A stretch of 33,429 nt of DNA, taken from Clostridia bacterium (GTDB lineage: Bacteria > Bacillota > Clostridia > Christensenellales > Aristaeellaceae). Of this stretch, positions 1,294 through 2,808 are shown piece after piece; positions within the stretch are counted from its first letter, which is position 1; each line of letters starts with the position of its first letter. The stretch is taken from positions 1-33,429 of the forward strand of contig JAFUAR010000045.1 in assembly GCA_017460585.1 (NCBI GenBank). Direction: 5' to 3'. The notes under the pieces were generated by a model, which saw only the letters and a list, made by a program, of their open reading frames with translations, made no database searches and was not told the DNA's origin. The translations under genes were made by a program, and so were the position numbers.

Positions 1294-1437
1294 TTCGATT
1301 TTGCATACCGGTTTAGCTGGGAGTTAAATAATAGGGTCTATTCATTAAGAATGAGAATAGAAAACGGACGAAACGTCTATATATAGCTCAAAAAATCCTA
1401 CCATTGGTTATGAAAACAAATGAGACTTGTTGCTATT

Positions 1438-1658
1438 CACCCATGGGGGTGTCGGGGGTCGCAACCCCCGACATTCAATCCGCAGCGGCGGCGTGTACGC
1501 CGCGAGGACGCGGACCATGTGTCCGCTTCCTTGCAGGTTTTGCGCCCGGAAACCGCATAGCGGTTTCAGCAAACCCTGAGGGGGGTGGCAGTGGCGGGGG
1601 ACGTGTCCCCCGTCCACTTACTGTGAAGCCGTAGGCTGAACAGTAACGGAGACTTACT
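1438..1658. repeat. Array of six or more distinct perfect hairpins (structured RNA or palindromic intergenic element)
   Basis: This GC-rich stretch folds into consecutive short hairpins with no shared stem sequence. (1) 1450-1459/1464-1473 has a 10-bp stem and loop CGCA. (2) 1488-1493/1498-1503 is GCGGCG-TGTA-CGCCGC. (3) 1510-1515/1521-1526 is GCGGAC/GTCCGC. (4) 1549-1556/1560-1567 is GAAACCGC-ATA-GCGGTTTC, enclosed by a 9-of-10 pairing of 1534-1543 with 1569-1578. (5) 1591-1602/1605-1617 has 12 bp with one bulged T. (6) 1618-1623/1641-1646 is TTACTG/CAGTAA around AGCC-GTA-GGCT. Because the stems are perfect, the array reads similarly on either strand. It begins about 150 nt upstream of the murG -10 and ends at the stop codon of the MFS gene, so it could form the 3' UTR of that gene, an independent RNA, or an interspersed repeat. 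I do not recognise a named family. Confidence 0.7.
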
Positions 1659-2808
1659 CTTTTGCCGCCTTTGCCTGAACCCCAGATAAGGCAAACGCTA
1701 TAAGCTGCAGCCCCGCGCACACCGAGCCGAGCAGCTTGGTCCCGCCGCCCTGAAGCAGTGCGCCGCCGGTCGCCGTGGCGATCATGCCGGATAAGCTGCC
1801 GTAAGCGGTATCCACCAGCGCGTGGGCGGTATTGCGGTTGTCCTCGGAAACGCTCGATTCCGTCATTTCACGCATGGTGGGGAAGAGTATGCCATAGGAG
1901 ATTCCGTTGCAGAAGGTGCCGCAGATGACCCATATGGGGCTGGACGCCAGCATGACCAGCACGGCGTACAGTAGTGGCATACCCACGGCCACGCACAGCC
2001 TGAGCCGAACGGGCAGGCGGCGCATTTTACCGGAGAGCGCCATAAATAGCGCCTGAATCAGGCAGCCGAGGAAGGCGTCAAGACCCAGCAGGGAAACATC
2101 GCCTCCGACGGACTGAATGACCACCGCCTTCATGTTGTTGATGGGTGCGACGCATAAGCCGGTAATGAATACGATGAGCAAAAGCAGCCGGTAATTTCTT
2201 ATACCGAGCAACGCGCCCATTCCGCCGCGCTCGCGGACCTTGCGCTGCGAAACGCGGCGCGTTTCAGGCTGCCGGAGGGCGGCGCATACGGATAGAATGA
2301 TGAGCGCCGTGCCAACCGGAAGCATGATACCGTAGCCGTGGCGGGAGATCCACTGCCCTTCAATCAGCATGACCAGCGCGTAGCCGAGCGTGGCGAAGGT
2401 GCGCGAAAAACCTACGGCGTCGCGCCTTTCGGGCATGGAGGAAATGACCCATGCATCCAGCGTAGTGGCGACGGAACCCGTCATAAATCCGAACAATGGG
2501 TAGAGAACGAACATGGCGGCGGCATTGCCCGCCAGCGGAAGCATCGCCGCGCAGAGCGCGAGCGCGGCGCAATTGCCCAAAATATAGTAAAACTTGCCGC
2601 CGCCGCGCCGGTCGTTAAAGCGTCCCCAAAACAACGCGCCCAAAAATGTGGTGAGCAGACCGAGCGCGAGAATACCGCCCGTGATACTTTCCGAAAGTCC
2701 GCGATCGGACATATATGCCACCAGAAAACCGGGGATCGCGGCATAGAACGACCACCACGCCCCTTGAAGCACGCAGAAGCGAATAAAACGGCTGCGGGAT
2801 TGATTCAT
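1654..2808 (-). CDS. MFS transporter
   Basis: A 384-residue, very hydrophobic protein with about twelve membrane segments, the usual major facilitator length. The loop between segments 2 and 3 carries GRFNDRRGGGK, a good match to MFS motif A (GxxxDRxGRR), which supports a proton-coupled secondary transporter. The substrate cannot be told. The open frame extends 44 codons further, but the ATG at 2808 (MNQSRSRFIRFC) is chosen because GGAGGG lies 8 nt upstream and the first membrane segment follows directly, whereas the extension is Arg-rich and crosses the -10 sequence at 2842-2847. It is transcribed away from the HAD gene, towards the hairpin array. Confidence 0.85.
   Translation of the reverse strand: MNQSRSRFIRFCVLQGAWWSFYAAIPGFLVAYMSDRGLSESITGGILALGLLTTFLGALFWGRFNDRRGGGKFYYILGNCAALALCAAMLPLAGNAAAMFVLYPLFGFMTGSVATTLDAWVISSMPERRDAVGFSRTFATLGYALVMLIEGQWISRHGYGIMLPVGTALIILSVCAALRQPETRRVSQRKVRERGGMGALLGIRNYRLLLLIVFITGLCVAPINNMKAVVIQSVGGDVSLLGLDAFLGCLIQALFMALSGKMRRLPVRLRLCVAVGMPLLYAVLVMLASSPIWVICGTFCNGISYGILFPTMREMTESSVSEDNRNTAHALVDTAYGSLSGMIATATGGALLQGGGTKLLGSVCAGLQLIAFALSGVQAKAAKE

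Follow-up and report, generated by a model that had tools for sequence, protein, structure and literature searches.

What is a dense array of hairpins doing in a single intergenic gap of a Clostridia genome? The window, by which we mean the whole stretch of 33,429 nucleotides analyzed here, holds such an array between murG (180-1286) and an MFS transporter gene (stop codon 1654-1656), both on the minus strand. A sequence-only reading had placed the array at 1438-1658 and offered three explanations: an undescribed structured RNA, a decay-resistant 3' end, or a palindromic mobile element. We examined how the array folds, where else it occurs, how its copies begin and end, and what might move it.

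Structure of the hairpin array

The stems are real and exceed chance. When each strand was compared with 200 dinucleotide-preserving shuffles, the fold z scores were -6.16 and -6.26, and no shuffle (0 of 200) reached the native stability. The separate stems lie where the sequence-only reading had seen them; its statement that every stem is perfect does not hold, as the terminal stem and hairpin 3 show below.

On the plus strand, hairpin 1 (1450-1459/1464-1473) has 10 bp and a CGCA loop, and appears in compensatory states among the copies in its own genome. Hairpin 2 (1488-1494/1497-1503) sits inside the most conserved core (1482-1513, GCAGCGGCGGCGTGTACGCCGCGAGGACGCGG). Hairpin 3 (1502-1515/1521-1534) is 86% paired with a perfect 6-bp tip (1510-1515/1521-1526), and forms a variable module flanked by GAGGA and TTCCT. 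Hairpin 4 (1534-1578) has an inner stem (1549-1556/1560-1567, loop ATA), an internal loop with the conserved bases GCCCGG, and an outer stem made of CAGGTTTTGC (1534-1543) and GCAAACCCTG (1569-1578). The enclosing 9-of-10 pairing reported for this hairpin is there, and its one mismatch is a peculiarity of the window copy, the position being paired in nearly all other copies. Hairpin 5 (1591-1617) consists of CGGGGGAC/GTCCCCCG (1595-1602/1605-1612) flanked by GTGG and CCAC. The terminal hairpin 6 (1618-1646; stem 1618-1630/1634-1646, loop GTA) pairs at 11 of 13 positions (85%) and includes the right inverted repeat described below. Elsewhere in the window, a terminator-like hairpin (CAACCGGCGA...TCGCCGGTTGTTG) occupies 133-167, between the end of an ORF at 104 and murG.

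A dispersed family with common ends

The array belongs to a large family. The core pattern matches 91 places on many contigs of the 2.8-Mb draft genome (87% complete), and a reversed control pattern matches none. Searching the same genome with window positions 1420-1660 returned at least 40 matches of 89 to 98% identity that cover most of the query. These GC-rich copies start and stop at sharply defined common ends: the left one is GTTACYATTCACC, the right one, in inverted form, GTTACTGTTCMGCC, and a family member reads GTTACYATTCAC...TGAACAGTAAC from end to end. Complete copies thus carry the terminal inverted repeats expected of a MITE, GTTACYATTCA and GTTACTGTTCA at the two ends. Many copies lie at contig ends (for example, L089, L092, L100, and L115). 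Because many are cut there, the count of 91 probably falls short of the true number; the element is itself a probable cause of the breaks in the assembly of its own genome, leading to an underestimate of copy number.

Insertion has left its mark on the flanks. Among the 40 copies with both flanks available, an 8-bp target duplication is exact in 15, has one mismatch in 5, and two in 7. The remaining 13 have at least three mismatches, which indicates that many copies are old or rearranged. In other genomes, too, there are elements that combine ends of the family's kind with exact 8-bp duplications (L032, L183, L206, and L263).

The window copy fits this pattern. Aligned with the other copies in its genome, it is a complete plus-strand MITE of 219 bp (1429-1647). 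Its left inverted repeat, GTTGCTATTCA (1429-1439), follows the family consensus GTTACYATTCA, and its right one (1637-1647, minus strand) reads TGAACAGTAAC on the plus strand. The left target duplication, TGAGACTT (1421-1428), is identical at 7 of 8 positions to the right one, GGAGACTT (1648-1655), which overlaps the MFS stop codon (1654-1656, minus strand). Relative to the proposed limits of 1438-1658, the true unit starts 9 nt and ends 11 nt earlier.

No close orthologue of the MFS gene was found among the 24 relatives searched for an empty site of the window copy, so a nested copy, L103, was used as an internal empty-site test. L103 interrupts the terminal hairpin of a second copy. Once L103 and one duplication are removed, its flanks join to read ACAACCTGTGAAGCCGCAGGCGGAATAGTAAC; the hairpin is then whole again, and this sequence equals the end of copy L156 bar one or two bases.

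Copies with the same two ends fall into size classes of 127 to 129, 189 to 197, 213 to 221, 239, 303 to 306, and 378 bp, of which several include exact duplications (L168, 129 bp; L153, 197 bp; L097, 306 bp). The differences are largely whole hairpins, such as TTGAAAACCC-GAAA-GGGTTTTCAA or GTTTTGACT-TTC-AGTCAAAAC. At 127 to 378 bp, all are too short to encode a transposase.

IS66-type ends and a candidate mover

Among 150 genomes of the same family, we found 32 matches to the IS66 DDE transposase family. Two of the corresponding elements share the MITE ends at both extremities: L290 (G129:C143), an IS66 element of 2,299 bp, has GTTACTGTTCAC (also given as GTTACTGTTCACGGGG) at each end, and L291 (G172:C46), of about 2.3 kb, has GTTACTAYTCAC (also given as GTTACTAYTCACAG) at each end. 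Two further IS66 loci (L284 and L287) end in GTAACTATTCAGTC, as does element L032 of a same-genus genome. IS66 elements produce 8-bp duplications. The MITE combines GTNAC-type ends with an 8-bp duplication, as do IS66 elements of the same bacterial family.

These common ends suggest that an IS66-type transposase likely mobilizes the MITE in trans. We infer the mover in this way because no IS66 transposase matched in the own genome (87% complete) or in four same-genus genomes. Such a transposase would act on the GTTACYRTTCA ends and would insert the element with an 8-bp stagger. The interior does not look like an IS66 remnant, as the core pattern is absent from the terminal sequences of L290 and L291, no MITE copy contains an IS66 gene, and similarity is limited to the outermost 11 to 12 bp.

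We conclude, with a probability of about 0.8, that the array in the window is a copy of a MITE, a non-autonomous transposon that is modular and abundant in its genome, with a putative IS66-type mover. The sharp common ends, inverted repeats, 8-bp duplications, nested insertion, copy number, and module-wise sizes lead to this conclusion. Of the three earlier proposals, it is thus the palindromic mobile element that is borne out, by the dispersed core matches, the target duplications, and the nested insertion.

Conservation and distribution of the core

The core extends beyond this genome. Scanning named genomes for the pattern gave at least 86 core stretches, every one from a MAG labeled Christensenella, Christensenellaceae, Faecaligallichristensenella, Avichristensenella, or unclassified Clostridia/Clostridiales. 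At least 20 MAGs of Christensenellales type have it, with a patchy distribution and many copies per genome. In a survey of genomes, it occurred in 5 of 396 from the order (93, 50, 45, 10, and 4 copies) and, by the same search, in 0 of 397 others from the phylum; the pattern is strict and misses genomes with diverged cores. By BLAST, 13 of 60 relatives (the own genome counted) had related stretches. A distribution that is both patchy and high in copy number is what is expected of a mobile element. One core-bearing contig (L180, IMGVR_UViG_3300031760_006452) comes from a viral collection; the genes adjoining the core look ordinary.

The order of the core is kept throughout. In turn come a GC-rich hairpin, AATCCGCAGC together with a hairpin whose loop is GGCGTGTAC, GAGGA, a variable hairpin, TTCC, and a hairpin with the conserved internal-loop bases GCC(C/G)G. 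The stems have been replaced wholesale between lineages with their pairing kept. We aligned 44 distinct sequences without fitting them to the structure. In the outer stem of hairpin 4, each of the 10 pairs shows two-sided (compensatory) changes, and the covariation score of three helices taken jointly was 0.406, compared with 0.131 in shuffles and at most 0.110 on sliding. Note that sequences were admitted with at most one mismatch in nine in the hairpin 4 arms, a rule that raises the apparent share of paired positions and leaves the zero count of G.U in that stem without meaning; the diversity of pair types still stands. Within the own genome, the hairpin 4 inner stem alone occurs as GAAACCGC/GCGGTTTC, GAAATCGC/GCGATTTC, and AAAACCGC/GCGGTTTT. 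Homologous copies and compensatory changes, whose joint absence the sequence-only reading had named as evidence against itself, are therefore both present.

Transcript end, structured RNA, or DNA palindrome

An array directly behind the MFS stop codon, with hairpins stable enough to end or protect a transcript, could be a cis-acting 3' end (terminator or decay protection) of the MFS or murG transcript. The genomic context of the family makes this highly improbable. Of 38 flanked copies in the own genome, 28 occupy gaps between predicted ORFs, and the remaining 10 mostly fall at an ORF edge; the neighbors are both on the minus strand in 12 cases, both on the plus strand in 6, divergent in 7, and convergent in 3 (counts that rest on simple ORF calls rather than a gene finder). 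Copies thus lie between genes in every arrangement, and those between divergent genes also led us to reject a simple array of terminators. Furthermore, the target duplication shows that the window copy arrived by insertion, and, together with the 91 dispersed copies, this refutes a 3'-end function as its origin. Alternatively, the core could act as a structured RNA with a regulatory or selfish function, made from the plus strand, for which the transposon ends serve only as a means of spread. The strong covariation and the conservation of loop GGCGTGTAC and the internal-loop bases GCCCGG across about 20 MAGs speak for such an RNA, as does the fact that copies in the own genome have more G.U than A.C in hairpins 1 and 4. 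Yet the copies are dispersed and mixed in their orientation to genes, and entire hairpins are gained and lost between them. Known RNA families offer no match: Rfam 15 gave no family at gathering score in the window and nothing relevant in ten related loci, so a known Rfam RNA was rejected. The best weak match was CRISPR-DR12 at the left end, at 23.2 bits against a cutoff of 37; with stem sequences that differ from one another, this agrees with the earlier judgment that the array is not a CRISPR, and we discarded that candidate.

How the palindromes mispair bears further on this question. Selection on an RNA strand is expected to favor G.U. Across lineages, mispairs are rare and symmetric, with 17 G.U and 20 A.C in 868 cells, counted in the first hairpin, the variable hairpin, and the hairpin 4 inner stem, where pairing was not an admission criterion; a tRNA control (2 G.U and 0 A.C in 84 cells) was too small to use. 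Among own copies, the hairpin 4 inner stem is biased toward G.U (27 versus 3). This bias would favor RNA if it came from independent events, but it probably reflects mostly shared descent. Across lineages, the scarcity of mispairs and the lack of any G.U excess over A.C make upkeep of the palindromes at the DNA level more likely than an RNA product. We therefore regard the structured RNA as unlikely on the sequences compared: its covarying stems are real, whereas a fixed context, a fixed orientation, and a preference across lineages for G.U over A.C are lacking. That the palindromes may be maintained as DNA is itself held with low certainty. Such upkeep might come about if excision or replication made use of cruciforms or of hairpins in single strands, or if palindromes were corrected by template switching.

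Copies of the core with other ends

GTTAC ends are missing from the core in some lineages (G002, L192, L194, L197, L227, L256, and others). There it is bracketed by a duplicated hairpin of 19 to 45 bp that resembles a terminator and is particular to the locus. About a dozen of the copies tested are flanked in this way, for example, L197 (27 of 27 positions), L256, L194, L192, L033, and L045. Ends such as AGACTGTCRAAAAA recur in them; ends of this AGACTGTC type are the second kind, beside the GTTAC ends. IS1272, of the IS1182 family, targets stem-loops, and duplication of the stem-loop has been drawn as one possible outcome (PMC5678879). Our conjecture is that, in lineages without GTTAC ends, an IS1182-like element carries the core, inserting at terminator hairpins and duplicating them. 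The duplicated hairpins and recurrent ends point that way, but a transposase of this type is absent from most of the genomes concerned, and just 15 of 74 copies, a count that includes a few other repeats and some loci represented twice, score above the 95% level of a null built from mismatched flanks (~4 expected). We place this carrier at somewhat less than even odds. The IS1182-type transposase of the own genome (L297, G000:C344:657-1058) has one end, GGGGCTGTCTCAAAAAG, that is only loosely similar to the recurrent ends; we rejected it as the mover because the ends mismatch.

Taking both kinds of ends together, the core might itself be a selfish structured cassette, present in miniature elements whose ends are unrelated, some of IS66 type with 8-bp duplications and others IS1182-like and hairpin-duplicating. 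Its hairpins would be kept palindromic as DNA by copying or excision, with modules gained and lost. This broader proposal is speculative, and we think it rather improbable.

Significance and comparison with known systems

We found no published description of the element within the part of the literature covered. It apparently represents a mobile family new to the literature, with many copies per genome, in a gut order known largely through MAGs. It probably accounts for part of the assembly fragmentation in Christensenellales MAGs. The family also offers a natural test of two questions. One is what keeps transposable palindromes almost perfectly paired across long divergence: selection on RNA, a function of the DNA hairpins, or repair by template switching. 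The other is how elements with different ends came to share one core.

The MITE resembles IS66 elements in its terminal repeats (GTTACYRTTCA) and 8-bp target duplication, but it is non-autonomous, and the outermost 11 to 12 bp are all that the two have in common. Like MITEs in general, it is short, without evident coding capacity, bounded by terminal inverted repeats and target duplications, high in copy number, and intergenic (PMC2229807, PMC10969869). MITEs are typically AT-rich (PMC2229807, PMC10969869), whereas this element is GC-rich; it further differs in being modular, in its deep covariation, and in having an interior that is no deletion remnant of the IS66 elements examined. Of these reviews, the one from 2024 names no IS66 MITE.

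The bcr1-bcr18 repeats of the Bacillus cereus group, likened here by description, are also dispersed; bcr1-bcr3 are MITE-like, and bcr10 and bcr18 have conserved secondary structure, as does the core (PMC3446304). They belong to another host group, whereas the core spans many genera of one order. By architecture, compared from the published account, the closest known system appears to be BOX of Streptococcus pneumoniae and S. suis, a set of dispersed, intergenic, non-autonomous repeats built of stem-loop modules (PMC3049150). In both, size varies through the gain and loss of inner modules, and in S. suis, different end modules enclose the same inner modules (PMC3049150). BOX, however, repeats one boxB, whereas the MITE described here strings together GC-rich hairpins of differing sequence, with IS66-matching ends, 8-bp duplications, and a core that spans many genera.
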